This document shows, piece by piece, positions 44,439 through 59,899 of a DNA stretch of 64,000 nt. Source of the DNA: Bacteroidota bacterium (GTDB lineage Bacteria > Bacteroidota > Bacteroidia > Flavobacteriales_D > Sanyastnellaceae); NCBI GenBank assembly GCA_002746975.1, contig NVXE01000006.1, positions 41,875-105,874 of the forward strand. The letters run 5' to 3'. The notes beneath the pieces were generated by a model. The model saw nothing but the letters and a program-made list of their open reading frames with translations, made no database searches and was not told the DNA's origin. A program made the translations under genes and the position numbers. The number at the start of each line of letters is the position of its first letter. The first letter of the stretch is position 1.

Positions 44439-45076
44439 GCGAAATACTCTATTGCTTTTTCGATTATACTCTCTGAACTAGATTCTTTACTTAAAATAAG
44501 ATCCTGACCTTGACGAATTAATTCCCGCTCAGTTGAAGGACCTATAGCAAAGCAAGGTAAGTTGTTAAACCCTCCATTTTGCATAAGACCTTTTACAGAA
44601 CTAGGGCTCATAAATGCCAATGCGTCAACACCTCTTAAATCTATGCTTTTTTTTAGAATACGAGAGCTATACACTACCTTTTCTAATACCTTAATGTCGG
44701 CATTATTAAGACCTTTAAGCAAATCACCTCTCCTGTTGTCACCACAAATAAACATAACCTCTTGCTCTTTGTTTTCAATAATTAATTCTGCCAAATAAAC
44801 TGCTGTATGTATTTTAGGAATTAATGCGTTGGGAATATTAGAGGCTGTTCTAGGGCCTACTGCATAAACTTTAGAGGGAAAATCAATCTCACAAAAACAT
44901 CTGCTAGCATTCCCACTTGTAAAAACCCAAGGGATATTCCTATTCCAATTTTTACAATCAAAATCAAGCTCAGATATCTCAATAATAGGTTCACATGAAA
45001 CACGTATTTCATCATGTTCTACAAGCAGATTATCAGCAAGCTGATTTAAGAATAATATATGAGGCTTCTTACTCAT
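44405..45076 (-). CDS. hemD: Uroporphyrinogen-III synthase
   Basis: This 223-residue protein is assigned mainly by position between hemC and hemB and by its two-domain alternating alpha/beta pattern; the family is poorly conserved. Supporting segments are VYAVGPRTASNIPN, MFICGDNRRGDLL, ALAFMSPSSVKGLMQNG and PCFAIGPSTERELIRQG, which match the usual HemD blocks around the active-site cleft. It closes hydroxymethylbilane to uroporphyrinogen III, the branch point to haem and siroheme. It overlaps hemC by 8 nt. Confidence 0.85.
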   Translation of the reverse strand: MSKKPHILFLNQLADNLLVEHDEIRVSCEPIIEISELDFDCKNWNRNIPWVFTSGNASRCFCEIDFPSKVYAVGPRTASNIPNALIPKIHTAVYLAELIIENKEQEVMFICGDNRRGDLLKGLNNADIKVLEKVVYSSRILKKSIDLRGVDALAFMSPSSVKGLMQNGGFNNLPCFAIGPSTERELIRQGQDLILSKESSSESIIEKAIEYFAWHSPIKETEG

Positions 45077-45974
45077 TTCGTTCGGGAGACATCAGTTTAT
45101 CTGCACCTTCTTCAAGAGCCAATATAGCTGCCTCCCTTCCAATTCCAACCGCATTATGCAATGGTCTATTAAGAGATATCTCAATCTTCTGCTCTCCATT
45201 TGGGCTTAAAACGACACCGTTAAAGAAAATTTCTTGATCATGAATATAAACCTTAGCTCCCACAGGTACAGAACACCCCCCGCTGAGTTCATTTAAAAAC
45301 TCACGTTCTGCAAGAGTACAGCTCGCCGTATCCCTGTGATTTAGGGTTTGCAATGATTGAAGTATGTTGTCACTTTCAGAAGCGTAAACTACAGCAATTG
45401 CTCCCTGAGCTGGGGCGTGAACCATCCAATCTAAGGTCATTCCTATCTCATGCTCTAATCCTAACCTTATCAAACCCGCAGCGGCAAAAATAGCTGCATC
45501 CCATTTACTGGATTTCAGCTTTTCAATTCTAGTGTGAACATTACCACGAATATCTACAATATTATGAGTTGGATATCTTTGTAACCATTGAGACTTCCTA
45601 CGATTACTACTAGTTGCAATAACCGCTACTTTATTATTTAAAAAGTCCAAACCCTCCCTACACACAATTACATCAACAGGGTTTTCTCTCTCTAAAATTG
45701 CACCCAGTTCAATTCCTGGAAGAAGTTGAGTTGGAATATCCTTGAATGAATGTACTGCTATATCTATATCACCTTTTATTAAAGCCTCGTCTAAAACTTT
45801 TGTAAACACACCCTTACCTCCCATTAAAGGAAGTGGAGTATCTAACACTCTGTCTCCTTCAGAAATAAGTTCTATTATTTCAGTAGTATGACCTGTCTTT
45901 TCTAAAGCATCAGCAACATAATGGGATTGCCAAAGTGCCAACTTGCTGTTCCTGCTACCTATCTTAATGTGCAT
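45069..45974 (-). CDS. hemC: Hydroxymethylbilane synthase (porphobilinogen deaminase)
   Basis: This is a 301-residue enzyme joining four porphobilinogens on a dipyrromethane cofactor. It opens with IGSRNSKLALWQSHYVADAL, contains HSFKDIPTQLLPG, the Arg-rich RGNVHTRIEKL and ALIRLGL-like AAGLIRLGL, and the cofactor-binding Cys234 in LSGGCSVPVGA. Normal length. It overlaps hemA by 11 nt and hemD by 8 nt, indicating tight translational linkage. Confidence 0.97.
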   Translation of the reverse strand: MHIKIGSRNSKLALWQSHYVADALEKTGHTTEIIELISEGDRVLDTPLPLMGGKGVFTKVLDEALIKGDIDIAVHSFKDIPTQLLPGIELGAILERENPVDVIVCREGLDFLNNKVAVIATSSNRRKSQWLQRYPTHNIVDIRGNVHTRIEKLKSSKWDAAIFAAAGLIRLGLEHEIGMTLDWMVHAPAQGAIAVVYASESDNILQSLQTLNHRDTASCTLAEREFLNELSGGCSVPVGAKVYIHDQEIFFNGVVLSPNGEQKIEISLNRPLHNAVGIGREAAILALEEGADKLMSPERNE

Positions 45975-47193
45975 CTTTATCCAAGCTATACATTTCTCGA
46001 AAAATAGCTAATACATCTTCGTTTTCTCGATATCGTTTGCGCAGATACTCAATGTTTTTGCTACTTATTCTTTTAAGAATGCTATCGACAAGCGGTTTTA
46101 ACTTTTGTAGCTCTTCCTCTGTGTACCTTCCTTTATATTTCCTTATTTCATCAGCCTTTTCAGCTTCAAATGCTAGATTAAGGTCTTTTATCGTAGGTCC
46201 TAAAGTCCTCATCTTTCTCCAGTCCTCAAACTCAGCTTTGTACATTTCAATAATCCCTCTTGCCTTAGGAATATCTTCTTTTCGTTTTGCTAGAGTTTCA
46301 TCCGCCACTTCGCTAAGTTTTTCTATATCTGCCAAATCAACTGTCCCCAACTCCATAACGTTAGGGTTAATGTTTCTAGGAACAGATAGATCAATTAATA
46401 ATTTCTCGCCTCCATTAAGGTGAGTTTTTTCTAAAGTATAATTTTCTGAACCTGTAGCTACCATTACAATATCTGCCTCTTTCACTCTATCCCCCAATTC
46501 TTCAAAAGGAGCAATATGAACTGAGTGCTTTTCTGCAATAACATTTGCCGTACTATAAGTCCTATTTATCACCGTTACTTTAGAAAACTTATAGCTTGTA
46601 ATATTTTCTAACGTCCTCTTCCCCATCTCTCCAGTACCAAAAAGTAAAATATTCTTATCGCCTAAATTCTTATGCTTATTCCTCACAAATAAAACGGCTG
46701 CATGTGCTACAGAAGCAGCTCCTTTGCTAATATTCGTGTAAGATTGAACATCTTTATAAGCCTGGAAAACGAACTGTAAAAGCCTGTCCATAACCCCGGT
46801 TATAGCTCCGGATTTTTTTGCTTGTTCTACTCCAGATTTAACTTGTGAAAACACCTGAATATCACCTAAAATTTGAGAATCAAGTCCGGTACTAACTTTA
46901 AATAAATTATCTATCGCCTCCTCACCTTCTAAAGCGAATCCGTATTTTACGAGATCTATAAAACTCCCATTACTATACTTTACGAGTAAGTCATTCAAAT
47001 AAGTAATCTCAGCATCTAATGCGAAAACCTGAGTCCTATTACAAGTAGAAATCGTAAAAATACTTTTTACGCCAAATTCTAAAGCCTCATTTATTAGACA
47101 TTCGGACAACTCCCTAGTCATACTGAACTTCTCAAGTACTTCAAGAGGCGTTTGCCAATGGTTTACCCCTACGGAAATGAAAGAATGCCTCAT
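45964..47193 (-). CDS. hemA: Glutamyl-tRNA reductase
   Basis: This 409-residue enzyme reduces glutamyl-tRNA to glutamate-1-semialdehyde, the first and usually rate-limiting step of C5-pathway haem synthesis. The nucleophile Cys51 lies in TISTCNRTQVF; GQILGDI-type SQILGDIQVFSQVK, the NADPH site LLFGTGEMGKRTL and a C-terminal dimerisation helix follow. I chose ATG 47193; the in-frame TTG at 47202 adds three residues. The gene begins 33 nt after the cytochrome c synthase gene on the same strand, with no terminator between them, so haem precursor synthesis appears linked to the cytochrome operon. Confidence 0.96.
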   Translation of the reverse strand: MRHSFISVGVNHWQTPLEVLEKFSMTRELSECLINEALEFGVKSIFTISTCNRTQVFALDAEITYLNDLLVKYSNGSFIDLVKYGFALEGEEAIDNLFKVSTGLDSQILGDIQVFSQVKSGVEQAKKSGAITGVMDRLLQFVFQAYKDVQSYTNISKGAASVAHAAVLFVRNKHKNLGDKNILLFGTGEMGKRTLENITSYKFSKVTVINRTYSTANVIAEKHSVHIAPFEELGDRVKEADIVMVATGSENYTLEKTHLNGGEKLLIDLSVPRNINPNVMELGTVDLADIEKLSEVADETLAKRKEDIPKARGIIEMYKAEFEDWRKMRTLGPTIKDLNLAFEAEKADEIRKYKGRYTEEELQKLKPLVDSILKRISSKNIEYLRKRYRENEDVLAIFREMYSLDKDAH

Positions 47194-47226
47194 TAAAACC
47201 AAAAATAAGGCTTATTTTGAATAAAA

Positions 47227-50200
47227 TTAGCTAATCTTATGCTTCACTTTTTTCAGATAAGCAAATAAACTAATGATAGTGATCGCAATAACTGCGTAAT
47301 ACACCCAACTAGGGATAGGCACTGGATCTCCAGCAGCATATGAATGCATTCCAGATAAATAATAATTCACCCCGAAATATGTCATGATCACAGAGGAAAG
47401 CCCAAATAGAGTAGCAAAATTATAAGCAAATAGACTTTTCAGACCAGGAATAAGGCGCATATGAAGAATGAACGCGTAAACTAGAATCGAAACTAGAGCC
47501 CATGTTTCTTTGGCATCCCATCCCCAATATCTTCCCCAAGATTCATTTGCCCAAATTCCACCCAAGTAAGTCCCTACACTGAGTAGCACTATCCCCCCGG
47601 TCAATGTCATCTCACTTATATAAGTCATCTCTTTGATGATCTTAATAATGTTTGGTTTGTTTTTTTCACTTAAAATCATGTACATAAGAAGGTTTATGAG
47701 CCCGATAATTGCACCGAGCATTAAAAACCCATAAGAACCTGCAATTAGACTTACATGTATAGTGAGCCAGTATGATTTAAGAACTGGTACAAGAGGTGTA
47801 ATTTCTGGATCTAGATAACTCAGCATCGCAATTAATAGTACTGCTCCCGCTAATACCATAGTTGCCGCCATAGCTCCTAAAGACTTCCTTGTAAAAATCA
47901 AACCCGCCAATGTTGAAGTCCAAGCAATATAAATCATCGACTCGTAGCCGTTACTCCAAGGTGCTCGTCCTGTGATATACCACCTTGCCCCCAATCCCGT
48001 AGTATGGAATATAAATCCTACGAAAACAAGGAAAACCAGAGCCGATCTGAATTTCGCCGCTCGCCCGTTTGGGAAGAAAACTGAATAAAATAACAAGCCT
48101 AAAAACAACATTCCTAGAAGGAAATAAAAAAGCGCTAATCTATTAAATACATTAGAATTATTGAGAGCTATTTCAGTAGAAATCTTTAAGTCAGAAGGAA
48201 TTACTGCCGCGCCGATTGTTGTTTGGTAATTCTTAAGTTCGTTAATGATTTTATCGCACAGCTCATAACTAGCGCCATTCATAGCATCATAAACTGCTCT
48301 TCTATAAGTACTGAAGAACGCCTCAGCAACTGGTGATGTTAATTTCTCCGAAGCAGGCAAGTGAGAGGTTTCTGCAACCCAAGTATTATTCACATCATTT
48401 TCTATGGGAATTACTTTAAAGAAGCTTCCCGCGAAAACCATTCCCACGATATTAACTCGTTCGTCAACCTTTAAAAGTTGTTTCTCGTAAGTCCCCCTCT
48501 CAATAGGAGGTTTTGCATTAGCTTCTTTTATCGCATTCCCAAGTTTGTAACTTCCATCATCGAAGAAAAAGTCTTTATAACTCGCTAATTCATTAGGTGA
48601 AATACCTAAAATTTCTGCAATGCCTTCATGCTTTCCAAATCTAATCATAGGGGCTCCGTACCAAACTTTAGGGTCCCCATACATAGATAGAATGGTCGTA
48701 CTCGCTGAATGCCCTTGATATTTAGACTTTCCGTGAACTTTGCGTAATAGCTCGTTAGAAAGTGTCTGCATAGGCTTCATTCTGCCTTTAAAATCCTGTA
48801 CTATCGTAGTATTAAAAAGGGTAGCGTGACTATCACTAACGTATGTCAGGTTTGGTGTAATAGGAGAAGCAAAAGCCATTACGGAAGAAACAGATAGCAT
48901 TGCAACTAAAACGAACCTTTTATCCTGCAAAGTTTTTAATTGTCTAGATAATTGAGAGAAGCGAGTGTTTTTATTAAAAAAGACCAATACTAAACCTAGT
49001 GTAAATAGGGCATAGCTGATATAAGTAATTAAAGTGCCCCAATAATCGTGATTCACACTAAGATATGTTCCTAATTCATCTTGATCGAAAGATGATTGAA
49101 AAAACCTGTAACCGTCATGATCTAGTATGTGATTCATATAAATTCTATGGTCTTCCCGAATATCTGTTCTGTCATCAATTAAAGTAACCTCACTGGCATA
49201 AGATGCAGGACTGTTAGTGCCTGGATATCTATCCATTATAAAATCATTCAAGTATAGACCAAACGGGAGATTAATGCGCTTAGCTCCATAACTTATTGAA
49301 AACTCGAAATTATCTACGTTAAAAACTTCAGCCCTTCCTTCTCCGCCAGTACGACCAAATACGTATCTATCAAACTCCTTATCATCAATATTAACTTTTA
49401 AATGAACACCTACAATGGAACTATTATCCATTTTAACGTCTGTACTAGTAAGCTGCAATTCTCCTGATGAAACGAAAGCTCCAAATACAAATCCTTTCTC
49501 TCCTGTATTGTAAAAAGACCTAAGCTTAAGTGGATGCACAATACCTTTCTCAAGTATTGATTGAGCTTGAGTTATCATTACCATCTCAGACAATTCTGTC
49601 TTAGACTTTATGAATAATTCTCCTTCTTCGTAGAAGATGCTTATATCTGCAGGACTTTCTGAAAAATCAACTACTGATGAATCAGATAATGATTTACTAA
49701 AATCGAAATTAAGCCCTGAAATAGTTCTTCTCTCTCCATCTCCTATATAAAACTCTTCTCTACCATTGCTTCCTCCGAAGACAATCTTAAGAATAGGTTG
49801 CCCGTTTTCAGATTCTACTAGAAGATTATCTGGGTTGGGCATAATGTCCAAAACCTCAACATTTACAAGCTTGCCATCAATATTGAATTTCTCATTGAAT
49901 GAATTATTGCCTATAGAAGAGAATAAAACAGGTTCACTAAATTCATAAAAATCTCCCTGACTTACTGCTTGAAAATTTAAATAATTGTCTCTAGAAAGCA
50001 CTGTGTTGGAGGAATCCCCCTCTCGTATGTGCATGGTCCCTTCAAAACTAAAATACCTTGTAATACCAGCTCCAACTAAAATTAGAACCATTGATAAATG
50101 AAAAATGAAGAGAGGCCACTTTTTCAATTGAAGCATCTTGAATTTCACAACATTTACCACGAGAGTGATACTGAATAGTGTCAGTAAAAGCTCAAACCAC

Positions 50201-50331
50201 CATGCTTTATAAACTAATTTCATAGCAGAGCTCGTGCCGAAATCGTTCTCAATAAATGTAGCTACACCTATCGAAACAGCAAAAAGCAAAATGTAAAAAC
50301 CTGCAGCAGAAGTACTAAATATTCTCTTCAC
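47227..50331 (-). CDS. Cytochrome c biogenesis protein CcsBA (ResB-CcsA fusion)
   Basis: This 1034-residue membrane protein exports haem and attaches it to CXXCH motifs of secreted cytochromes (system II). The N-terminal ResB/CcsB-like half has membrane helices near 10-30, 50-65 and 75-95, a large extracytoplasmic domain and another helix near 440. The C-terminal CcsA half (about 740-1034) contains the WWD haem-handling signature WGRYWGWDAKETW and conserved histidines on flanking helices (e.g. TIHVSLIAGSYGFL). The start is GTG at 50331. It stands between the multihaem cytochrome genes and hemA, as would suit the 37 haems per set of cytochromes to be attached. Fused CcsBA is usual in this phylum. 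Confidence 0.95.
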   Translation of the reverse strand: MKRIFSTSAAGFYILLFAVSIGVATFIENDFGTSSAMKLVYKAWWFELLLTLFSITLVVNVVKFKMLQLKKWPLFIFHLSMVLILVGAGITRYFSFEGTMHIREGDSSNTVLSRDNYLNFQAVSQGDFYEFSEPVLFSSIGNNSFNEKFNIDGKLVNVEVLDIMPNPDNLLVESENGQPILKIVFGGSNGREEFYIGDGERRTISGLNFDFSKSLSDSSVVDFSESPADISIFYEEGELFIKSKTELSEMVMITQAQSILEKGIVHPLKLRSFYNTGEKGFVFGAFVSSGELQLTSTDVKMDNSSIVGVHLKVNIDDKEFDRYVFGRTGGEGRAEVFNVDNFEFSISYGAKRINLPFGLYLNDFIMDRYPGTNSPASYASEVTLIDDRTDIREDHRIYMNHILDHDGYRFFQSSFDQDELGTYLSVNHDYWGTLITYISYALFTLGLVLVFFNKNTRFSQLSRQLKTLQDKRFVLVAMLSVSSVMAFASPITPNLTYVSDSHATLFNTTIVQDFKGRMKPMQTLSNELLRKVHGKSKYQGHSASTTILSMYGDPKVWYGAPMIRFGKHEGIAEILGISPNELASYKDFFFDDGSYKLGNAIKEANAKPPIERGTYEKQLLKVDERVNIVGMVFAGSFFKVIPIENDVNNTWVAETSHLPASEKLTSPVAEAFFSTYRRAVYDAMNGASYELCDKIINELKNYQTTIGAAVIPSDLKISTEIALNNSNVFNRLALFYFLLGMLFLGLLFYSVFFPNGRAAKFRSALVFLVFVGFIFHTTGLGARWYITGRAPWSNGYESMIYIAWTSTLAGLIFTRKSLGAMAATMVLAGAVLLIAMLSYLDPEITPLVPVLKSYWLTIHVSLIAGSYGFLMLGAIIGLINLLMYMILSEKNKPNIIKIIKEMTYISEMTLTGGIVLLSVGTYLGGIWANESWGRYWGWDAKETWALVSILVYAFILHMRLIPGLKSLFAYNFATLFGLSSVIMTYFGVNYYLSGMHSYAAGDPVPIPSWVYYAVIAITIISLFAYLKKVKHKIS

Positions 50332-50359
50332 GTTTCGAGTATTTAAGTATTTTTTTCAA

Positions 50360-51094
50360 TTATTGAATAGGAACCGCATCCTCCATTAACAACTCATATA
50401 TATAACCGGCTCCGAAATCTTTATTTGTAGAAATAACACCTTCAAATGTTACTGAATGTCCTGTAGGAACAGAGACTTCAGATGTTACTACAAAATCGTA
50501 ATCATCAGCAGATCCGTCTTTAATATGAATCCAGTTTCTGTCCATTATACTCTCGTTAACCTTAGAGATTAGGCCATGTACCCTTACGGTTTTTCCAGCA
50601 AAATCGAATGGCGAATTGACAATTTCTGAAATACTCACGACCCCTTCAGAGGTAGAATTTAAAGGACTCCCTCCTATTTCCTTTTCAATAAATGATACCA
50701 AATAAATTTTATCGAAACTTCTAGACAATTCTTTACTATCAAAATTTGATTTAAGTAGTCGACCAGTGTATTTATAGTTCTCCCCAACTACAAAGTCTCC
50801 CTTAAGGGTAGCAATCCAATATGCATCGCTCTCTGTCAAACCAGCACCCTCTCCTTCAACCTTTAAATATGAGTACTTGGAAGCTTGAAGAACCTCTACG
50901 GCAGTCACGTTATACGTTTTTCTTTCTGCTCCTGCGTTCGTTTTACCGGAGAAAATGCCTGTAGATACAGCATTACCCGTAGAATTAGCACCCGAGTTAT
51001 TTGCTTCAATTACCTTTCCGTCATCTGAACATCCGGAAATTAAAAGTGCGCTAAGGGATAAGAAAATTAGTCCCGAAAAAATGGTATTTTTCAT
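50360..51094 (-). CDS. Lipoprotein with OB-fold-like domains
   Basis: This is a 244-residue predicted lipoprotein (lipobox LISGC, Cys22). After a low-complexity Asn/Ser/Gly-rich linker (about 28-55) come two beta-rich segments. The second, about 150-242 (VSISEIVNSPFDFAGKTVRV, then HIKDGSADDYDFVV and VTFEGVISTNKDFGAGY), reads as an OB-fold of the kind found in small proteins next to multihaem cytochrome genes. It has no CXXCH. It lies 2 nt from the barrel gene and 28 nt from ccsBA. It could be an outer-membrane scaffold or haem-handling protein; no function is established. Confidence 0.7.
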   Translation of the reverse strand: MKNTIFSGLIFLSLSALLISGCSDDGKVIEANNSGANSTGNAVSTGIFSGKTNAGAERKTYNVTAVEVLQASKYSYLKVEGEGAGLTESDAYWIATLKGDFVVGENYKYTGRLLKSNFDSKELSRSFDKIYLVSFIEKEIGGSPLNSTSEGVVSISEIVNSPFDFAGKTVRVHGLISKVNESIMDRNWIHIKDGSADDYDFVVTSEVSVPTGHSVTFEGVISTNKDFGAGYIYELLMEDAVPIQ

Positions 51095-51096
51095 TA

Positions 51097-52641
51097 TTAA
51101 AAACGCTGTAGGATTCTAACTGTAAATCTATGAAATGGCGCACCACTTCTAGCCGAAAAATCATACAAAGCACTAACAGATAAACCTTCTTTAACATAGT
51201 AGTCGGAATCTATCCCGATATAGAGTTGTTTAATTGGGTTTATATCGAAATTGTGATACGAGTAGAGCAGGAATCTTGCATTAGGTGAAACCTCAAGTTT
51301 GGAGTTGAAAAATTGACGAGAATATCGTGACGAAATAGAGTAATACTGGAAGTAATCATTTTTGTTAACCGAAAATGAATTGCTGAGCCGGCCTCCTAAA
51401 AGTTCCGAGAAATTTAAATAACCCCCGAAATTTGAAAAGTTGTTATTACCATCTTCCTGACGACGAATACTGAAGCTAGCACCGCTATAAACACGGTTCG
51501 AAATCCTATAGTTTGCTCGAAATCTTATGCTGCTCTTCAATGGATCGTTCGCCATTAACTCTACCAAGTCTTGATTAAATGACTCGTATAAGATTAAATT
51601 CTTTCGAAGATTTAAAGATGCTGACAATCTCAATTTATCATTTACTCTATAGTTTGCTGACGTATATAGAAGTCTGAGGTGAGCTGAATTATATAAATCC
51701 ACTTCTGCACTTGAATAAATAGTCAAATCCTTCCCGACTCGACTATTATGCTGTAAAAAGGCGTATCGACGGTCAGTGAGACCTCTGTTTGTTTGGTCTA
51801 TGAAACCTATAGACGTAGAACTCGAATGAGCATCATTATGGAAAACGCCAACATTTACACCATACTGGAATAAATTCGTGTTTACTGAATACGTATAAGG
51901 ATCGGGTCTACTTCCCACCACTATTCCTACAAATGACCTTTTAAACCTCTTTTCTGCATGTAGGCCGTCAGTAGCCCCAAGAGAATACATCCTGTTGTTT
52001 ATATCACGACCTAGACTTATCGTTGTACTAGAATCAAGCTCATAGGTTAGAATAGCTTCGTGAATATTTAAACGATTATTATTTAGATTTCGATAATTAG
52101 AATAGCTCTGAAAAGATAATTTAGACCCTGCAATATTCTTTACATCTAGTGCTAGCCTAGCCACCCTCTTAGAATAAGACTCACCATATCCAAAAGTTGT
52201 ATTATTAGACAAAGAGAATCTTCCGCTAACCTCTTGACTTCTTTTATTTAACTCCTCAGCAATATCCAAAGGTTCTCCACTTGTTTTATCTCCAGTAGTT
52301 TTATTATCCACCTCTTCAACTTTGGAATCCTGATTAATGCGGTAATGGTAAATCACACTTGCCCCTTTCTCAATATCGCATCCTCCTATTACTTCTGCTA
52401 CACAAGAAACTGATGACTTTTCAAGGATGATTATACATGGAGTTTCAATGCCATCACGAGCTATATAAACTGTATCTCCCGTAAACATGTTTTCAGTAGA
52501 GGGGAATCTGAGATAGACATTTTGGGATGTCACGAAACTCACCTCACCAGAAATGGGAGGTAAATCGTTCTGGGATAAAACCTCTAAAGAATTCAGAGTA
52601 CCCATAAATATCGCAACAGTAAATATAACTGAATTTCTCAT
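51097..52641 (-). CDS. Outer-membrane beta-barrel protein of the multihaem cytochrome locus
   Basis: This is a 514-residue exported protein (signal peptide about 1-24). The N-terminal part (25-105) is a small beta domain with three Cys (TPCIIIL, VSCVAEV, GGCDIE). From about 140 to the end, alternating amphipathic strands such as RLALDVKNIAGSKLSFQSYS and LRLSASLNLRKN run to a terminal Phe, as in a 16 to 22-strand outer-membrane barrel. It lacks haem motifs. Position directly after two multihaem cytochromes matches the logic of porin-cytochrome conduits (MtrB-like), but I see no detectable MtrB sequence motif, so it would be a different barrel family. Four nt separate it from the 16-haem gene. 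Confidence 0.7.
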   Translation of the reverse strand: MRNSVIFTVAIFMGTLNSLEVLSQNDLPPISGEVSFVTSQNVYLRFPSTENMFTGDTVYIARDGIETPCIIILEKSSVSCVAEVIGGCDIEKGASVIYHYRINQDSKVEEVDNKTTGDKTSGEPLDIAEELNKRSQEVSGRFSLSNNTTFGYGESYSKRVARLALDVKNIAGSKLSFQSYSNYRNLNNNRLNIHEAILTYELDSSTTISLGRDINNRMYSLGATDGLHAEKRFKRSFVGIVVGSRPDPYTYSVNTNLFQYGVNVGVFHNDAHSSSTSIGFIDQTNRGLTDRRYAFLQHNSRVGKDLTIYSSAEVDLYNSAHLRLLYTSANYRVNDKLRLSASLNLRKNLILYESFNQDLVELMANDPLKSSIRFRANYRISNRVYSGASFSIRRQEDGNNNFSNFGGYLNFSELLGGRLSNSFSVNKNDYFQYYSISSRYSRQFFNSKLEVSPNARFLLYSYHNFDINPIKQLYIGIDSDYYVKEGLSVSALYDFSARSGAPFHRFTVRILQRF

Positions 52642-52645
52642 CTAT

Positions 52646-53875
52646 TTAATCCTCATCGCCTGTTGGATGACATGCATAACAAGCATTACTTTCATAAACA
52701 TAATTATTCTCTTCATTATGTTCTCCAGCTAGATTTTGCTGGTCATTGTGACATACTATGCAACTAAATGTAGAATAATCCCCGCCTATATGACATTCGT
52801 TACATGAAGTCCACTCTCCTTGATGTTTACCTGAAAAGATAGGGAAATATTGAGAGTCATGTTGGTCATAACTCGCTTCCCCCCAAGTATCACCTGTATG
52901 ACAAAGGGTGCAGTCTTGAGAAAATCCAGAACTTACATGATTCGGTGAATTTACTGCCAAGTAATCATCCTCGTGACAAGAAACACATTCTGGGGAAATA
53001 TTACTGTAGTTATTAACGTCATGACATTCTGCGCAATCTGAAATATTGTGTTTTCCTACCAATGGGAACATATCGTGAGATGCGAAAATTGCCTCCTGCC
53101 AAGTATCCCCAAAATGACATTGAGCACAGTCAGTACCAAAATTTGATGAAACGTGATCTGGCGAAGTAGTAGCCAAATAGTCATTTTCATGACAAGACAC
53201 ACAGTCTGGAGATGTATCCGAGTAGTTTTCACTAAGATGACAAGATGCACAATCGCTAATGTTATGTCTTCCTACCAATGGGAAGAATAAATGAAAATTC
53301 TCAGCTCCCTCCCATGATTGTGCTCCTGGACTGTGACATTCTGTACACTCTTGAGAAAATCCCGATTGGATATGATTCGGTGACGTAGTGGCATGGTAAT
53401 TATCGATATGACAAGTGACACAATCACTGCCCATCCAATCCCATCTCAAATTGCTTTCCGATTTATGACACTCTGAACATGAAATAAGTCTGTGTTCGCC
53501 TAATAGAGGGAAGCCGTTCATCTCATGCAATTCAGGAATATTATCAACTAACCAATTTCTTTCGTCGTGACATCTTACACAATCATTTCCAACTGACATG
53601 CTATGCATATCAGTGTGACAAGAAATACAGCTAGGATCAGCTTCGTTAAAAATCAGAGTCGAGTGACATTTTTTACAATCTGTATCCAAATGACTGAATT
53701 TTAACTCGAACCCAACATCATCATGGGTGAAGTTAGCCCCCTCACCCATAAATTCCCACCCCGTACTATTGTGACAATCTGCACAAGCTATTGCGAGAGA
53801 AGTGCCATGTGGAGTTTGGGCTGAAAGCCCTAGTGATAACACTAAAAACAATACTATTGATGACAATCTATACAT
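52646..53875 (-). CDS. 16-haem cytochrome c with tandem tri-haem repeats
   Basis: This is a 409-residue exported cytochrome (signal peptide about 1-19, GLSAQ) with 16 CXXCH motifs that I counted directly. The middle is a tandem array of about 70-residue modules, each with three haems: a segment FPLVGKHNISDCAECH, then PECVSCHEDDYLA, then SQDCTLCHTGDTW. Four such copies lie between residues 120 and 380, the last partial. Many additional His residues could serve as distal ligands. It overlaps the 20-haem gene by 22 nt. Periplasmic or surface-exposed electron transfer is inferred; no catalytic site (hydroxylamine or nitrite reductase type) is recognisable. Confidence 0.9.
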   Translation of the reverse strand: MYRLSSIVLFLVLSLGLSAQTPHGTSLAIACADCHNSTGWEFMGEGANFTHDDVGFELKFSHLDTDCKKCHSTLIFNEADPSCISCHTDMHSMSVGNDCVRCHDERNWLVDNIPELHEMNGFPLLGEHRLISCSECHKSESNLRWDWMGSDCVTCHIDNYHATTSPNHIQSGFSQECTECHSPGAQSWEGAENFHLFFPLVGRHNISDCASCHLSENYSDTSPDCVSCHENDYLATTSPDHVSSNFGTDCAQCHFGDTWQEAIFASHDMFPLVGKHNISDCAECHDVNNYSNISPECVSCHEDDYLAVNSPNHVSSGFSQDCTLCHTGDTWGEASYDQHDSQYFPIFSGKHQGEWTSCNECHIGGDYSTFSCIVCHNDQQNLAGEHNEENNYVYESNACYACHPTGDED

Positions 53876-55446
53876 TCAAATCTTTCAATTTTATAATTCA
53901 CAGTTTCAACTTCTTGATTGTAAAACCTAGCCGTGTGACACTCTATACAATCTACGTCTTTATGCTTACCATCTAACGGAAAATCAGTTTCATTATGATT
54001 AAACAATTTGGCTTTCCAACCTTTGTCTGTCGTATGACAATTATTACAATCAACTTTTAGGCCAAACTGTCCATTATGTTGATCTTCATGACAACTTGAG
54101 CAGTTTGAGCTTTTTCCTTCAAACTCTTGAATTTCATCTATTTGAGAGAAGTGACATTCTCTGCAGCTTACCTCAAGATGACCACCCTCTAAATCCCATT
54201 CAGTAGTAGAGTGATCGAAATCAACCTCAGACCAAGTGTCCGAATTATGACAGGCTGCGCAATTTGATTCCGGAAAGTATTTTTCGCTAATTATACCTTC
54301 ATGAATATTATCATGACAGTCAACACAGTCTTCGCCTATATCTCTAAACTCCCATCTATCGCTATTTTCATCTACATGACATACGAAACATGGCGTCGCA
54401 ATATGCGCTCCCTCGAGCTTAAAACCCGACTCTTGATGCTCCGCTAGACCATATAATGTACTCGTGAATGGATGTTCAAGAGTGTGACAGTCATTACAGT
54501 CTAATTCTGGCTTTATACTTGTAAACTGCTCGTTATGATAGTCGTCGTGACAATTCTTACACAAATTGTGATCAAGGCTCAAAGTGTGTTTTCCAGATTT
54601 ATGACATTCCTTACAATCAAGCCCTACGTGTTCTCCAACAAGAGGAAAATCGGTCAAATCGTGATTGAAATTAGAACCTGAATTAAGATTACTCCAGCTT
54701 TTTTCATTGTGACATTCCGTACAATTTGTGCTAAAACTGCTGTTGTGTGGATTATCGTGACAGTCAGTGCAAAGCTTGAATTTTATATCCTTAAACTTTT
54801 GGAAGTCCTCTCCGTTTCTAGTGCTTTTTTTGTGACATTTAGCACAATCTATATCTTTGTGAGCACCTCTAAGGCGAAATTTTGCCTCTTTATGGTCGAA
54901 CAATTTTGCAGGATTCCATTTTTCAAAATTATGACACTCTTTACAGTCAGCTCCCAGAGTTTCTTGATGATAATCTTTGTGACAGCTCAAACAATCTTCT
55001 TCAAGACCTAGATATGTTTCACTCAATTTTCTTATCTCTTCACTTTTGATATTCTCTGGGTTATGGCAATCACGACAATCTATTCTCCAATGTTCTCCTT
55101 CTAGTTTATAATCGGCAAGATTATGGTCGAATTTATCTTCATTGATTCGAAATAAGTCAAAGCCTCTCCCATGATGTTCGCTATGACAGCTAAAGCAGTT
55201 CTTACCCTCTACATCTTCACTTACGTGATATCCTCTATCGGCATCTATTAAAGATTTAATCTCCTTGTGACAGGCTAAGCACTTATCGTTATTAACCTGG
55301 CTTCCTAAAATATGGCATTCTGTACAATTCTCTACTCCTTCAAGATGCTTATGTGCTTCTGACAAATCTCCCGGAGATAGTTGTCCCCATGAACAACTTG
55401 CTCCTAAAGCACTTATAATCAGAAATATGTATTTAAGTTTTTTCAA
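53854..55446 (-). CDS. 20-haem cytochrome c
   Basis: This 530-residue exported cytochrome has 20 CXXCH motifs by direct count, from CTECH near residue 41 to the terminal CIDCH. Recurrent segments (FPLVGEHVGLDCKECH, FRLRGAHKDIDCAKCH, FPLDGKHKDVDCIECH) show the same module family as the 16-haem protein. The start is TTG at 55446; the frame has no ATG nearby, and MKKLKYIFLIISALGASCSWG gives a good signal peptide. No lipobox is certain, although GASC could be one, which would anchor the protein to a membrane. It overlaps the 16-haem gene by 22 nt and follows the oxidoreductase by 11 nt. It should relay electrons between the inner and outer membrane. Confidence 0.92.
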   Translation of the reverse strand: MKKLKYIFLIISALGASCSWGQLSPGDLSEAHKHLEGVENCTECHILGSQVNNDKCLACHKEIKSLIDADRGYHVSEDVEGKNCFSCHSEHHGRGFDLFRINEDKFDHNLADYKLEGEHWRIDCRDCHNPENIKSEEIRKLSETYLGLEEDCLSCHKDYHQETLGADCKECHNFEKWNPAKLFDHKEAKFRLRGAHKDIDCAKCHKKSTRNGEDFQKFKDIKFKLCTDCHDNPHNSSFSTNCTECHNEKSWSNLNSGSNFNHDLTDFPLVGEHVGLDCKECHKSGKHTLSLDHNLCKNCHDDYHNEQFTSIKPELDCNDCHTLEHPFTSTLYGLAEHQESGFKLEGAHIATPCFVCHVDENSDRWEFRDIGEDCVDCHDNIHEGIISEKYFPESNCAACHNSDTWSEVDFDHSTTEWDLEGGHLEVSCRECHFSQIDEIQEFEGKSSNCSSCHEDQHNGQFGLKVDCNNCHTTDKGWKAKLFNHNETDFPLDGKHKDVDCIECHTARFYNQEVETVNYKIERFECIDCHQ

Positions 55447-55457
55447 TACCAGTGTTG

Positions 55458-56840
55458 TTAATATTCACGTACAATCTTCCCGAATTTCTTTTCAACGTTA
55501 ATCCCTGCATTTTTTAGAAATTTAATCGGTAATTCCCCCCCTGCAAAAATATAAACCAAATCATTTTTAATATTTTCGATTTCCTTTTCCGCGTCCACTC
55601 CTTCTTTACATAACGTGATAAAATCTTCTTTTATTTCAAGAAGATTTGAATTGTAAATCATCTTCAATTTTTTATTCTCAATTGCCTCGTTAATTAGACG
55701 TCTATTTTCTGATTTTATTCGAGCAAATTTGTCCTTCCTATATGAGAGAATCACTTCATTCTCCTCCATTAATAACATTGCTGACTCAACCGCAGAATCA
55801 CCTCCTCCCACAACTAGGATTTTATTGCCTTTAATATTCTCAGGCTCTAGCAATCTATACGCAACTTTTTTCGACATCTCTCCTGGCACACCAAGCTTCC
55901 TTGGAGAACCTCTTCTCCCTATTGCGATGACCACATTAGAAGCGATATACTCTTTCTCCTCAGCTCCATCTTTGCCTTCGACACATACTTTAAATTCTCC
56001 CTTTTCAAGAGGCACTATTCTATCCACCTTAGAATGTTCAGTTACTGAAATATTATTATCAGATAGTACTTTAGTCCAAATTTTTAGCAATTCCTCTTTA
56101 CTCGTATCAAATAACTTGACCTTTCCTAACAAAGGTAAATCCATAGGATGAGTCATTACAACTTTAGCTCTAGGGAAAGTAAACACTGTACCCCCTAATG
56201 AATCCTGTTCTAAAATCTCAAAGTTCAAACCGTTATCTTTTGCGGTCAAAGCCGCTGCTATTCCGGCTGGCCCAGCTCCTACTATGATAATATCGTGAAT
56301 GCCTTCCTTATTAATTCTTCCACTCTTTACTATATTTTCAACAGCTTGTTTACCTTGTTCAGTACTATTCTTAATAAGCCCCATTCCTCCAAGCTCTCCT
56401 GCGATATAGATTCCCGAGATATTAGTTTCATAGTTTGGCTTAATTTGAGGTAATTCAACACCACGAGTTTCTGTACCTATCCTGAGACTTATTGCTTCAA
56501 CCGGACAAGCGTGAAAACATGCACCGTGACCTATACAGCTCGAAGCGTTAATCACTGTAGCAACTCCATCAACAATACCTAAAATATCTTTTTCAGGACA
56601 AGATGATACGCAAGCTCCACTACCTATACATTTAGTTAGATCTATGTGTGGGTGAAGCGAAACTGGCTCGAACATACCTTCTTCTTTAGCAACAATTACT
56701 TTTTTTGCTATAGCTTTTGAGCTTCGTTTCTCCTTTTTAGCATAATACATTACAATCATGCCACCTATAAGAGCGGTAAATCCATAGATAAGGACTTCAT
56801 CGAGTAAAACTGATAATTGAATTAATCCTAAAATATCCAT
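55458..56840 (-). CDS. Membrane-anchored Fe-S / FAD NAD(P)H oxidoreductase
   Basis: This 460-residue protein has an N-terminal membrane helix (about 12-33), two ferredoxin-like modules (about 65-120) and a thioredoxin-reductase-like FAD/NAD(P) domain (from 168: IIIVGAGPAGIAAALTAKDN, later VVGGGDSAVESAMLL). In the Fe-S modules the second Cys is replaced: CIGSGACxxxCP (Cys71, Ser74, Cys77, Cys81) and CIGHGACxxxCP (Cys102, His105, Cys108, Cys112). The redox-active CxxC of thioredoxin reductase is absent, so it is not a disulfide reductase. It overlaps the membrane cytochrome b-like gene by 13 nt and precedes the 20-haem cytochrome; it is the likely entry point for electrons from NAD(P)H or ferredoxin. 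Confidence 0.85.
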   Translation of the reverse strand: MDILGLIQLSVLLDEVLIYGFTALIGGMIVMYYAKKEKRSSKAIAKKVIVAKEEGMFEPVSLHPHIDLTKCIGSGACVSSCPEKDILGIVDGVATVINASSCIGHGACFHACPVEAISLRIGTETRGVELPQIKPNYETNISGIYIAGELGGMGLIKNSTEQGKQAVENIVKSGRINKEGIHDIIIVGAGPAGIAAALTAKDNGLNFEILEQDSLGGTVFTFPRAKVVMTHPMDLPLLGKVKLFDTSKEELLKIWTKVLSDNNISVTEHSKVDRIVPLEKGEFKVCVEGKDGAEEKEYIASNVVIAIGRRGSPRKLGVPGEMSKKVAYRLLEPENIKGNKILVVGGGDSAVESAMLLMEENEVILSYRKDKFARIKSENRRLINEAIENKKLKMIYNSNLLEIKEDFITLCKEGVDAEKEIENIKNDLVYIFAGGELPIKFLKNAGINVEKKFGKIVREY

Positions 56841-57640
56841 GTATATCCCATTGTTACTGTAACTCCAATATGAATAAGCACAACAAAAAGCATAATCAAA
56901 GCGAAAGGTTTATGAATAACATGCCAATACTTAAATAATGTCTTCATAGTGCTCAAATTCGCAATCTTGGATTCTAAGTGTTTTTCCTTATTAAGAATTT
57001 CTAAAACTTGCATTTTTTCTTTCCTAGAAGCTTTACTTAACTTCAGATAACCCTTAGCTATATTATATCGTTTTTTACTCTTCAAGCCACTATCTAAAAG
57101 AACTTTTAGTTGATCTTCCGTCAGCACATCCCCTTCTTTCAGCCCCTCGAGCATTACTTTTTGTTTATTATGGATTTGCTCTAAGCCTAACGCTTGACCT
57201 TGAATGTTTCGTGGGATTTGAACATAAATGAACCTTCCCACCACTCCACTAGCTACAATTGCAATCATAGACCAAAACGCAATACTTACTATTCCGCCAA
57301 ACTTAAATGAGGTGTGAAAGAGGATTAAAATCGGACCTAGTGTACAAAGGAAAATATGAAATTCTAGCAAATACTTTATCCTCAAATACTTCTCCATAAA
57401 TCCATGATTCTTTCTCGCAATATAAATTGCGACTCCGAAAGCTATCATAAACGTACCTATAACACCCAGCCCCTGACCGAACAATCCTGACGGCTTAAAC
57501 CAATTATAATCAGGATGATAGAACCTTTCTTCTAAAGGTAAACTATAAAACGAATTTCCTGCTATCCAGAGATAAGCTGTGACTATGACTACAACTGCAG
57601 ACATAGAAAAAATATAAAGGGAATGAACTGATTTCGTCAT
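56828..57640 (-). CDS. Cytochrome b-like multi-helix membrane protein
   Basis: This is a 270-residue inner-membrane protein with about five or six helices (near 8-28, 53-74, 88-108, 116-136 and 240-265). Paired His residues in the membrane, HIFLCTLGPILILFH (two His 14 apart) and WHVIHKPFALIMLFVVLIH, have the spacing of b-type haem ligands in cytochrome b561- or ferric-reductase-type proteins. A cytoplasmic helical region (about 140-235) separates the helix groups. It is the first gene of the multihaem run and overlaps the flavoprotein gene by 13 nt. The pair probably forms a transmembrane quinol or NAD(P)H oxidoreductase feeding the periplasmic cytochromes. No exact family name is claimed. 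Confidence 0.65.
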   Translation of the reverse strand: MTKSVHSLYIFSMSAVVVIVTAYLWIAGNSFYSLPLEERFYHPDYNWFKPSGLFGQGLGVIGTFMIAFGVAIYIARKNHGFMEKYLRIKYLLEFHIFLCTLGPILILFHTSFKFGGIVSIAFWSMIAIVASGVVGRFIYVQIPRNIQGQALGLEQIHNKQKVMLEGLKEGDVLTEDQLKVLLDSGLKSKKRYNIAKGYLKLSKASRKEKMQVLEILNKEKHLESKIANLSTMKTLFKYWHVIHKPFALIMLFVVLIHIGVTVTMGYTWIF

Positions 57641-57646
57641 TTAAAT

Positions 57647-57720
57647 TTATAACTTATGTACGAGCCATTAATTTAATAATATAACGTCGTTTATTCTTTA
57701 ATCATATGTATAAGTTATAA
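57647..57720. promoter_or_regulatory. Long-spaced 11-bp inverted repeat upstream of the cytochrome operon
   Basis: TTATAACTTAT (57647-57657) and its exact complement ATAAGTTATAA (57710-57720) bracket the 74-nt gap between the patatin gene and the cytochrome b-like gene. The right arm runs into the patatin stop. No good TAnnTTTG promoter is visible here. The dyad could be an operator pair for a looping regulator, or a base-paired leader; chance in AT-rich DNA is possible. Confidence 0.4.
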
Positions 57721-58776
57721 ACGCCTCTCGAAGTAACAACTAACTCCCAACTTTCCACTATCGATTAACATTAGCTTTTCTGACTCTGATAGCATCCTAA
57801 TCTTAGGGCCTATACCTACAGAGGATACGGAAACGGTTCTGTCCCAGTCTGAAGATACTAATTGTGTTCTGTTTAAATTTTCTATGGTAAATACGTAAAA
57901 CGCTTTTACAAAATCCTCGAAACTTCTAATATCTAAAGGAACTAAGTCAATAGATTGAGAATTGTTCTGAGAACATACCTGACTATCTACTTGATCGCTC
58001 GAATCCATTCGAATTCCCAATGTAGATGGGTTGGGCGTTCTAATAGAATTCCCCGAATCGTCAATTGTCGAATCGTCGAACAAAAATATGGGAAAATTTC
58101 CGATAATTCCTCCGTCTACGACAATATCAAGAGGAATCGAGGATGAGTTTTCAGAGTACACTTTCCCGAATTCATCTATGAACATCGCTTCAAAATAGAA
58201 CGGGATTGACATAGAAATTAATACCGCATCAATTATCCTCATATCAGGATAAGTCTCGTTTGAGAAAACTAAAAGTTTCTGCTTATTCAAACAAGTCCCT
58301 GTTGTATATAAATCTAGGAATCCCGCGTCATGAAGCTCTGAGAAAGTGATGTTTTTGTCACCGGTTTTGGAAGAAACGATTTGGTCTAACCAAGCCTCAA
58401 AAGTATCGCGTTGATACCATCCATACCTCTTATTCACTCTATGAATACCCCCGATGAACATATACTCTCCGTCATTGAATTCATTTAGCTCGGTATTGGA
58501 AATTATTTCCTCCAGTTCAGCTGCTGTATAGCCCAAAGAAAGCATTAATGCTGTGATCGCTCCTGCAGAAGTCCCTCCCACTTTTTCGATTCCACTCATC
58601 ACCCCCCTTTCCTCAAGTTCATAAACTACTCCAGCATATGCTATCCCTTTAACCCCAGCTCCTTCGAACACTAGATTTCGAATATCGAGTTGTTGTGCGA
58701 AGCATTTTGCATCTTTATTAAATGCAAAACTGGTGAGCACAATGAGGGCGTAAATGACGTACTTAAAGTTCTTCAA
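57715..58776 (-). CDS. Patatin-like phospholipase, exported
   Basis: This protein of about 353 residues has a signal peptide (MKNFKYVIYALIVLTSFAF) and a patatin domain: the oxyanion motif EGAGVKGIAYAG, nucleophile GTSAGA and catalytic Asp in VVDGGIIGNFPI. The Ser-Asp dyad is complete, so lipid acyl hydrolase activity is likely. I placed the start at TTG 58776 because it yields a clean signal peptide; GTG at 58800 is the alternative. It overlaps the dehydrogenase gene upstream. Export suggests action on periplasmic or foreign lipids. Role unknown. Confidence 0.83.
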   Translation of the reverse strand: MKNFKYVIYALIVLTSFAFNKDAKCFAQQLDIRNLVFEGAGVKGIAYAGVVYELEERGVMSGIEKVGGTSAGAITALMLSLGYTAAELEEIISNTELNEFNDGEYMFIGGIHRVNKRYGWYQRDTFEAWLDQIVSSKTGDKNITFSELHDAGFLDLYTTGTCLNKQKLLVFSNETYPDMRIIDAVLISMSIPFYFEAMFIDEFGKVYSENSSSIPLDIVVDGGIIGNFPIFLFDDSTIDDSGNSIRTPNPSTLGIRMDSSDQVDSQVCSQNNSQSIDLVPLDIRSFEDFVKAFYVFTIENLNRTQLVSSDWDRTVSVSSVGIGPKIRMLSESEKLMLIDSGKLGVSCYFERRL

Positions 58777-59899
58777 CTTGCAATTCGTAGTTGACACCAC
58801 GCTCTTTAAGACCGTTTAAAATATACTCTACGCATTTGTGATGCTTACCTAGATATTCCGGTACGATGATTCCTTTTTCGGAATAAACACCCTCTGAGAG
58901 CATTCGAAGAACAGTAGTGGCGGTATAACCCGTGGTTCGAGCCATGCTATGGACCTTTGAGGTAGGGCAGTACTCATCGAAAAGACTGTACGTGTATTTT
59001 AAACTCACGCCGTCCTTAACCCCTTCTACTTCTATACGCATAATCGTGAAATCCACTTCGCCGGGCTTGAGTTCCCATTGCGGAAATAAAAGCTTCGCCG
59101 TTAAGTCTATGGGACGGACGTTTACGCCATTAACCTCTGTGGGTTCTGAACTAAAAAAGCCAGCTTCACGCATAATTTCCATAAGCTTGATATGGCCTGG
59201 ATAGCGTAAGGTTTTCTCCTTGATGTTGGGAACGTGAGGCATGGTCTTAGCGAGAGATCTAATCCCATCGCTATTAAAAGATTCTAGCGTTCCTACCTTT
59301 TCAAATTGAAGAAGTTCTGGCTCAGATAGAGCTGGTTTTGTTATAAGAACTCCGTCCTGAATATATCTAGCAGGTCTAGTGTACTCCTCTATAACATCTA
59401 TAGGTGAGAAAACCGCTTTATACTCGTATGGTAGTTCTCTAACTTTAGGTAGACCTCCGACGTAAATGAGAATGGATGAGGTTATGTCTAAAATAGAATC
59501 AACATATCCCGGGAGAATGTTACTCATGCCAGGCGCCACGCCTATATCCACTATCGCTGTCACATCATGCTTCAAGGCCAAATCGTTTAGCTCCAAAGCA
59601 TCTTCTGGGAAAAACGAGATGTCCACCACATCCTTTCCTGCTTGAATAATGCTCTTTAAAGTGGTATAGCCCATAAATCCCGGAACCGCACACAAAACAA
59701 GATCAGCATCATCTATCACCTTGAGCAGAAGTGACTCATTACTCAGATCTGCTTCAACTGTTTCAATTCTACTGCCCAGAAATTTCCCCAGGTTCACAGG
59801 GCTGAAATCTGCCACTTTAACTTCCAATTCTTCATCTAAGGCCAAATCAAATGCCATCGGCGCTCCTACTAGCCCCGCTCCCAGTACAGTTACTTTCAT
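58763..59899 (-). CDS. Saccharopine dehydrogenase-like NAD(P) oxidoreductase
   Basis: This is a 378-residue cytoplasmic protein with an N-terminal Rossmann motif (VTVLGAGLVGAPMAFDLA) and the saccharopine-dehydrogenase family blocks ADLVLCAVPGFMGYTTLKS, DIGVAPGMSNILPGYVD and a C-terminal domain with SMARTTGYTATTV. Family members act on saccharopine, carboxynorspermidine or related secondary amines. The sequence alone does not decide, and no lysine pathway genes are adjacent. It overlaps penicillin acylase by 4 nt (ATGA). Confidence 0.88.
   Translation of the reverse strand: MKVTVLGAGLVGAPMAFDLALDEELEVKVADFSPVNLGKFLGSRIETVEADLSNESLLLKVIDDADLVLCAVPGFMGYTTLKSIIQAGKDVVDISFFPEDALELNDLALKHDVTAIVDIGVAPGMSNILPGYVDSILDITSSILIYVGGLPKVRELPYEYKAVFSPIDVIEEYTRPARYIQDGVLITKPALSEPELLQFEKVGTLESFNSDGIRSLAKTMPHVPNIKEKTLRYPGHIKLMEIMREAGFFSSEPTEVNGVNVRPIDLTAKLLFPQWELKPGEVDFTIMRIEVEGVKDGVSLKYTYSLFDEYCPTSKVHSMARTTGYTATTVLRMLSEGVYSEKGIIVPEYLGKHHKCVEYILNGLKERGVNYELQVEEL

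Follow-up and report, generated by a model that had tools for sequence, protein, structure and literature searches.

Seven consecutive genes on the minus strand of a 64,000-nucleotide stretch from a Bacteroidota bacterium (contig NVXE01000006.1, family Sanyastnellaceae; the whole stretch is called the window hereafter) probably encode an electron conduit through the cell envelope, and we hold with somewhat better than even confidence that it is a PCC3-like porin-cytochrome conduit (PCC) which is fed by NAD(P)H and exports electrons. The gene set is real and conserved. It occupies positions 47227-57640 and comprises an inner-membrane protein (IMP) of the PCC3/PCC4 type, whose motif points to two b hemes (56828-57640, 270 amino acids (aa)), a membrane-anchored Fe-S/FAD NAD(P)H oxidoreductase assigned by Pfam (55458-56840, 460 aa; the flavoprotein), a putatively periplasmic wire cytochrome (53854-55446, 530 aa), a length-variable cytochrome with a predicted surface location (52646-53875, 409 aa; the outer cytochrome), an outer-membrane beta-barrel (51097-52641, 514 aa), a lipoprotein (50360-51094, 244 aa) and the system II cytochrome c synthase CcsBA, assigned by Pfam as ResB plus CcsA (47227-50331, 1034 aa). 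PCC3, as defined in He 2017 (PMC5566968), combines a porin, a periplasmic multiheme cytochrome (MHC; median 21 hemes), an outer MHC (median 34 hemes) and an IMP.

The coordinates of the open reading frames (ORFs) and the counts of CXXCH motifs agree with the original prediction for this locus in its seven minus-strand genes and its 20- and 16-heme cytochromes, and the Pfam domains agree with the identities it gave to CcsBA, the Fe-S/FAD protein and the cytochromes. Its description of the consecutive genes as overlapping needs correction, as only two of the six junctions overlap, namely IMP/flavoprotein by 13 nucleotides (nt) and cytochrome/cytochrome by 22 nt, the other four leaving gaps of 2 to 28 nt.

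In the phylum, an IMP match was detected in 45 of the 395 sampled genomes and is strong in 40 (E ≤ 1.1e-64), and the IMP, the periplasmic and the outer cytochrome occur together in 38 of these 40 genomes, the window's own counted. The two strong-match genomes without the cluster are G490 (locus L091) and G336 (L143), the latter having an IMP with stop codons. The neighbourhood look took in one of the five weak matches, G306 (L114), which is different from this cluster, and left aside G279, G293, G429 and G566. The window's class contributes only the window genome and one other to the IMP matches of the phylum, the outer cytochrome was found in six of 199 sampled genomes of the window's order, and the window's genus holds the IMP in two of 14 genomes, many of which are incomplete. 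Among 32 annotated related regions, 27 contain the IMP, the flavoprotein, both cytochromes and the barrel, on one strand in all 27, so that the gene set is not a matter of chance; of the other five, L091 and L114 are without the cluster and L096, L113 and L116 are cut by contig ends. Eight further regions yielded the cluster in seven cases, and the synteny is thus conserved in other Bacteroidota; a lack of it would have refuted the original prediction. The order of the genes, which it had taken to follow the electron path, does so in many clusters, the exceptions being those with the flavoprotein gene last and L045, in which the outer cytochrome comes last.

Named strains carrying the set are Hanstruepera neustonica JCM19743 and Emticicia oligotrophica DSM 17448, in the latter on plasmid pEMTOL02, and these two carriers make the system testable. 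Full-length cytochrome or barrel matches on plasmids were obtained only from Emticicia, the other plasmid matches that were opened being small IMP modules. In addition, a planctomycete contig (L011) harbors one ORF matching both the IMP and the flavoprotein together with cytochromes of 29 and 15 hemes, and no barrel was recognised on it.

Heme numbers and the proposed split triheme module

It is an even call, in our judgement, that both cytochromes belong to a single continuous triheme wire, which is interrupted within a module where it reaches the outer membrane, with the module complete only when the chains meet and the heme number acting as a ruler, 20 or 23 across the periplasm and steps of three outside. 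Both window cytochromes contain c7/c3-type Pfam domains, and no CX3CH or CX4CH motif was found in the window gene set. The 20 motifs of the periplasmic chain form six triheme modules plus two hemes, and the 16 motifs of the outer chain form one heme plus five triheme modules. Across 41 clusters, the periplasmic heme number is 20 in 32, 23 in six and 19 in three (one of the last being joined from two ORFs), whereas the outer number ranges from 10 to 73 and follows 3k+1 in all 39 complete main outer cytochromes, with 17 different values. Truncated or broken outer genes (L005, L010, L096, L116, L138 and L140) were dropped before counting, as were L114, a weak 14-heme non-cluster, and L091 and L143 with their IMP outside any cluster; the 25-heme cytochrome of L109 and the 10-heme one of L099 were taken as the main outer cytochromes, and two secondary cytochromes (12 and 8 hemes) are truncated by the locus end. 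The eight regions mentioned above were fetched last and opened after the 3k+1 rule had been seen, and they serve as hold-outs: the periplasmic chain has 20 hemes in all seven with the cluster, and the five complete main outer chains (49, 19, 31, 10 and 37 hemes) all obey the rule, which brings it to 44 of 44 genes and 18 values.

The coefficient of variation of the heme number is 0.06 for the periplasmic chain against 0.51 for the outer one, and a fixed and a variable number are what a periplasm-spanning chain and a chain that continues outside would be expected to show. A quick flavoprotein tree of 41 rows has at least 26 changes of the outer number (37 rows) and seven of the periplasmic one (39 rows), so shared ancestry alone is insufficient to explain the 3k+1 rule. 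Counting against the rule are complete secondary outer cytochromes with 38, 9, 9 and 9 hemes and the planctomycete outer chain with its 15; the 34-heme secondary cytochrome of L141 fits it. L141 also has, beside its full cluster, an additional short IMP accompanied by a 10-heme cytochrome (L141:3127-4616), and the latter departs from the pattern. The largest outer cytochrome, a single protein of 1808 aa with 73 CXXCH motifs, was found in a genome of the window's family (L043:13119-18545). Its gene contains no DNA tandem repeats, and the window genes contain one short row with an 8-base unit; hence the modules there are not recent DNA copies. In L045, the outer cytochrome gene (L045:16018-17472) lies behind CcsBA, apart from its partner, and retains both the 3k+1 number and the Pro-His start described below.

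The place at which the wire would be cut can be located in the window, all positions being on the minus strand. The heme 19 motif of the periplasmic chain (residues 500-504; 53935-53949) and the heme 20 motif (residues 525-529; 53860-53874), which falls inside the 22-nt gene overlap, would be the first and second hemes of the split module, and the first heme motif of the outer cytochrome (residues 31-35; 53771-53785) would be the third. A Pro-His-Gly (residues 22-24; 53804-53812) lies by the predicted mature N-terminus of the outer cytochrome, with the signal cleavage placed by eye. When a gap of ≥29 residues between CXXCH motifs is taken as a module border, the periplasmic chain closes with an incomplete module of two hemes in 41 of 41 clusters and seven of seven hold-outs (48/48), with 0-7 residues after the last heme motif; the full gap-rule listing gives 41 of 42 chains, the remaining one being L114. 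The planctomycete periplasmic chain ends in the same manner. A single heme opens the outer chain in all 47 cases listed (41 main and six secondary) and in all eight intact hold-out starts, and Pro-His precedes the first outer heme in the 47 listed cytochromes and the eight hold-out starts alike.

The register was also tested from the flanking residues only, with the tested cluster left out of the model. The penultimate periplasmic heme was assigned to module position 1 in 41 of 41 clusters, the last one to position 2 in 39 (periplasmic model) or 41 (outer model), and the first outer heme to position 3 in 41 by its downstream flanks and in 33 by its short upstream flank, and for internal hemes the assignment was correct in 96-98%. 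Each cluster was represented by its first-listed outer cytochrome, which in L109 is the 9-heme one. Two results run counter to the split-module rule: internal modules are split 1+2 by the gap rule in 15 of 41 periplasmic chains, and the last outer heme was placed at position 3 in 21 clusters and at position 2 in 20, an ambiguity from which we take the outer end to be a different cap. The outer Pro-His as a ligand of heme 20 in the other chain was considered and set aside as unproven; each window chain has, by eye, about one candidate distal histidine per heme, so inter-chain and within-chain ligation both fit. A triheme register running across two proteins leads to a precise expectation for the docking of a surface wire with a periplasmic one, and comparing species with 20 and 23 hemes bears on whether heme number tracks the width of the periplasm.

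Inner-membrane proteins, barrel and neighbouring genes

The window IMP, numbered from Met 1, carries H95-X13-H109, S131-G-x-x-G135 and W239-X3-H243-X13-H257. An alignment of 17 rows, which takes in six plasmid sequences of Proteobacteria or Spirosoma, shows the four histidines and the first glycine to be invariant and the serine, second glycine and tryptophan to be conserved in ≥90%, and all eight residues are invariant in the 11 family rows. The tryptophan that the PCC3 motif has on transmembrane helix (TM) 3 is a leucine in the window and a tryptophan in three of the 11 family rows. The hydropathy profile has six peaks, with three overlapping between residues 88 and 134, compared with five TM helices for the PCC3 IMP. 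An approximately 200 aa protein adjoins the IMP in L088, L089, L090, L092, L093, L094, L097 and L102; scanned in L089 and L097, it is a TPR protein with weak CcmH likeness, and is possibly a cytochrome assembly factor.

The flavoprotein matches Pyr_redox_3 (2.1e-36) and Fer4_10 (1.6e-11), remains under the cut-off of the YpdA model (148.9 bits vs 339.9) and shares 57-67% identity with 10 homologues, its ferredoxin domain having six invariant cysteines and an invariant histidine. In both ferredoxin motifs of the window protein the second cysteine is substituted, once by a variable residue and once by the invariant histidine, which suggests unusual clusters. Judged by eye from charge, the C-terminal domains of the flavoprotein and the long IMP loop were assigned to the cytosolic side. 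The flavoprotein accompanies the IMP, both cytochromes and the barrel in 27 of 28 regions, the remaining one (L113) stopping inside the barrel gene at a contig end, and in all seven hold-out clusters. Its gene is situated between those of the IMP and the periplasmic cytochrome or outside this pair, with one switch on the flavoprotein tree, and viral contigs screened with it contained no relative.

The small modules on plasmids of Proteobacteria and Spirosoma (L050-L055) consist of a 2Fe-2S or FAD/NAD(P)-binding protein, an IMP and a 7-heme cytochrome, and several lie close to copper, metal or hydrogenase genes. Five modules have a gene annotated as a 2Fe-2S protein ahead of the IMP, and in Spirosoma this place is taken by an annotated FAD/NAD(P)-binding oxidoreductase, which indicates that an electron-feeding partner of the IMP recurs. 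All six 7-heme cytochromes align with the N-terminal half of the 20-heme chain, inside residues 11-262 (E 1e-14 to 4e-20). That half is therefore the likely partner of the IMP, and from these alignments the N-terminus of the periplasmic chain probably faces it.

Structure prediction of the barrel succeeded (AlphaFold2, mean pLDDT 76.7, pTM 0.57), with an N-terminal beta domain at residues 30-98 and 22 strands at residues 137-513, in line with the barrel originally proposed. Siderophore-receptor barrels are the best matches, the top VIA-align row being 5fp2_B (Z 20.3, rmsd 4.1 over 346 residues), and the high Z reflects a wide barrel only. Neither the barrel nor the lipoprotein matched a Pfam or NCBIfam model at E 0.01. 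An MtrB relationship of the barrel was accordingly set aside; MtrB is also absent among the 50 rows listed by Foldseek or VIA-align, an absence that excludes nothing. In seven aligned rows of the lipoprotein, the lipobox cysteine is invariant and an IMxRNWxHIKDG region is conserved; the lipoprotein was also found in L086 and was not seen in L006, L008, L042 or 31 other annotated regions. CcsBA matches PF01578 (2.3e-38) and PF05140 (1.7e-22) and scores 170.3 bits against TIGR03144, whose cut-off is 187.6.

Directly upstream of the cluster, a patatin-like phospholipase gene lies on the same strand (57715-58800). After CcsBA, also on the same strand, come hemA, hemC and hemD (44405-47202), named by eye from the sequence, with the hemA start 24 nt past CcsBA. 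A hemA of the window type (57-100% identity) was found in three of the 14 genus genomes, while four others have one of 30-32% identity and seven have no match.

Proposed electron path and rival explanations

In the proposed mechanism, NAD(P)H would reduce the FAD of the membrane-anchored flavoprotein, whose Fe-S clusters would pass electrons to the IMP, first to its cytosolic b heme and from there to the periplasmic one, in a split NADPH-oxidase/ferric-reductase layout. The IMP would deliver them to the fixed-length 20-heme chain, with its N-terminus toward the IMP and its C-terminus reaching into the 22-strand barrel. Inside the barrel, the outer cytochrome, a wire extendable in three-heme steps toward an extracellular acceptor, would complete the unfinished triheme module with its first heme; Fe(III), Mn(IV), humics or a partner cell may be considered as the acceptor. 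CcsBA would attach the hemes. The trans-envelope path of the original prediction finds support in the gene set, the barrel model and the synteny, and the metal-directed transfer it also put forward is a candidate role.

The flow of electrons from NAD(P)H to the outside is downhill and the reverse is not. No RuBisCO match was found in the 95% complete genome, other carbon-fixation routes not having been searched, and the genome carries a cytochrome oxidase beside a gene run recognised by eye as alternative complex III. An aerobic heterotroph would fit export better than lithoautotrophic uptake, and on all these grounds we favour the export direction with moderate confidence. The same conduit run inward, bringing electrons from Fe(II), sulfide minerals or a partner to the quinone pool or the aerobic chain, seems unlikely to us. 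In its favour, the genome has the cytochrome oxidase, the nearest named relative is the Flavobacteriales bacterium isolate SZUA-1298, one of a series of isolates probably linked to deep-sea vents, and PCC3 itself is discussed for Fe(II) oxidisers. The linked flavoprotein, by contrast, speaks for NAD(P)H, a pool that Fe(II) could fill only uphill in potential and against the membrane potential according to established bioenergetics, and the missing RuBisCO match also tells against uptake.

A surface reductase that reduces Fe(III) chelates or oxidants outside the cell for iron uptake or redox balance, and not for respiration, is in our estimate rather improbable, since 36 hemes in the window and 93 in L043 would be costly for assimilation. 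What speaks for it is that the named carriers include Hanstruepera neustonica and Emticicia oligotrophica, both presumably aerobes, that the fused planctomycete homologue has a weak PF01794 match (E 0.0019), and that the IMP resembles ferric-reductase transmembrane domains by the motif argument of PMC5566968. We regard it as quite doubtful that nothing crosses the outer membrane and that both cytochromes are periplasmic electron stores beside an unrelated porin: every one of the 27 uncut clusters has a barrel gene (ORF length 527-605 aa) and heme number is free to vary in one chain only, even if the plasmid IMP modules have a cytochrome and no annotated barrel alongside (some neighbours being 'hypothetical') and the outer cytochrome shows no lipobox.

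Several points weigh against the NAD(P)H-fed export conduit that we prefer. The missing lipobox leaves the route of the outer cytochrome to the surface unexplained. AlphaFold2 failed on the 20-heme chain (pLDDT 34.5), so the wire shape is hypothetical, and both cytochromes could be otherwise loaded and placed. The barrel assignment is weak in divergent clusters (19.6 bits in L111, 32.7 in L113 and 38.0 in L103), and the 22 strands of the window barrel are fewer than the up to 42 predicted for PCC3 porins (PMC5566968). The quinone exchange and electron uptake proposed for PCC3 in the same source remain compatible with the data, and the conduit as drawn here rests on sequence and predicted structure. 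If true, it would place a PCC3-like conduit with an explicit cytosolic electron source in Bacteroidota, a phylum known mainly for aerobic polymer degraders.

Comparison with known systems

The window set shares with MtrCAB, MtoAB and PioAB a multiheme chain expected inside a wide barrel and an outer cytochrome, and differs from them in that its barrel has no MtrB_PioB Pfam match and that its chain has 20 hemes vs 10. The MtrA model TIGR03508 scored 44.7 bits against a cut-off of 192.2, and the original statements that an MtrA-family member and an MtrB signature are lacking are thus upheld. PF22113 (MtrC/MtrF domain II/IV) scored 37.4 and 33.0 bits on the two window cytochromes vs a gathering threshold of 30, with Cytochrome_C7 and Cytochrom_c3_2 scoring higher on both. 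Cyc2 is a single heme fused to a porin, whereas the window barrel has no CXXCH. Homology to soluble enzymes was tried and rejected, with HmcA at 21.9 and 14.9 bits vs a cut-off of 400 and NrfH at 29.4 vs 134.2; no soluble enzyme family reached its cut-off, and the clear homology of this kind that would have refuted the original prediction did not appear. The only sequence matches in the PDB were three c7-type chains, 3ov0, 3ouq and 3oue ('Cytochrome c family protein'), which are weak (E 0.001-0.007), resemble the window cytochromes in their chain of triheme units and are, we assume, Geobacter GSU1996, soluble domains without a barrel. Members of the NADPH oxidase/ferric reductase family combine NAD(P)H, FAD and two stacked b hemes across the inner membrane; here, the parts would be separate polypeptides, with Fe-S clusters placed between FAD and heme, and the acceptor would be a heme wire.

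For Bacteroidetes from Trout Bog, unnamed putative PCCs without homology to known PCCs are reported in He 2019 (PMC6344600), whose accessible part lists no genes for them, and these may include the window-type cluster. The uncharacterised Bacteroidetes_1 cluster of anode biofilms (PMC8258643) has cytochromes and a predicted barrel and was proposed for extracellular electron transfer; it differs in having seven genes with six multiheme cytochromes and, in the portion available, no flavoprotein described. The available text of Garber 2024 (PMC11475568) contains no word starting "Bacteroid", and that of He 2017 does not contain the word "Bacteroidetes". Searches on PCC3 plus Bacteroidota and on Flavobacteriales porin plus multiheme returned no description of this gene set among the titles and abstract starts listed, which is weak evidence of absence as subscription journals and preprints were mostly uncovered. 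The split triheme register is likewise absent from the descriptions found in this open-access literature and may be new, a weak indication of novelty given that coverage.

The PCC4 cluster (He 2017) includes a porin and further redox proteins beside an IMP whose motifs are those of the window one; it differs in its three periplasmic MHCs (4, 5 and 10 hemes) and in the lack of an outer MHC, where the window has two MHCs with 20 and 16 hemes. PCC3 comes closer. According to PMC5566968, it was found in Alpha-, Beta- and Gammaproteobacteria, including Sideroxydans and Leptothrix; its IMP is approximately 300 aa long with SGXXG on TM4 and WX3HX13H on TM3 and TM5, and its cytochromes have 22-39 residues per heme (median 26). 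A 2025 paper on Sideroxydans CL21 (PMC12442390) calls a PCC3-like conduit functionally unverified. The window combines a porin, a putatively periplasmic and a putatively outer MHC and an IMP in one cluster, its IMP has both HX13H pairs, the SGXXG and the TM5 tryptophan, its cytochromes have 26.5 (530 aa/20) and 25.6 (409 aa/16) residues per heme, and its relatives have a variable outer MHC of 10-73 hemes. The original prediction of a system that is new and unlike those known holds with respect to MtrAB, MtoAB, PioAB and Cyc2 and gives way with respect to PCC3, which it did not consider. There are differences as well: the periplasmic heme number is 20 or 23 (3k+2) here vs 21, 24 and 27 in Gallionellaceae PCC3, where CX3CH and CX4CH are counted too, and the NAD(P)H/Fe-S flavoprotein belongs to the window-type set, to which CcsBA and the lipoprotein may be linked. 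Our analysis supports a PCC3-like assignment by published features, namely gene content, motifs and heme density, and not by sequence alignment, and the set is probably an NAD(P)H-linked variant of the PCC3 kind that is found across the phylum.

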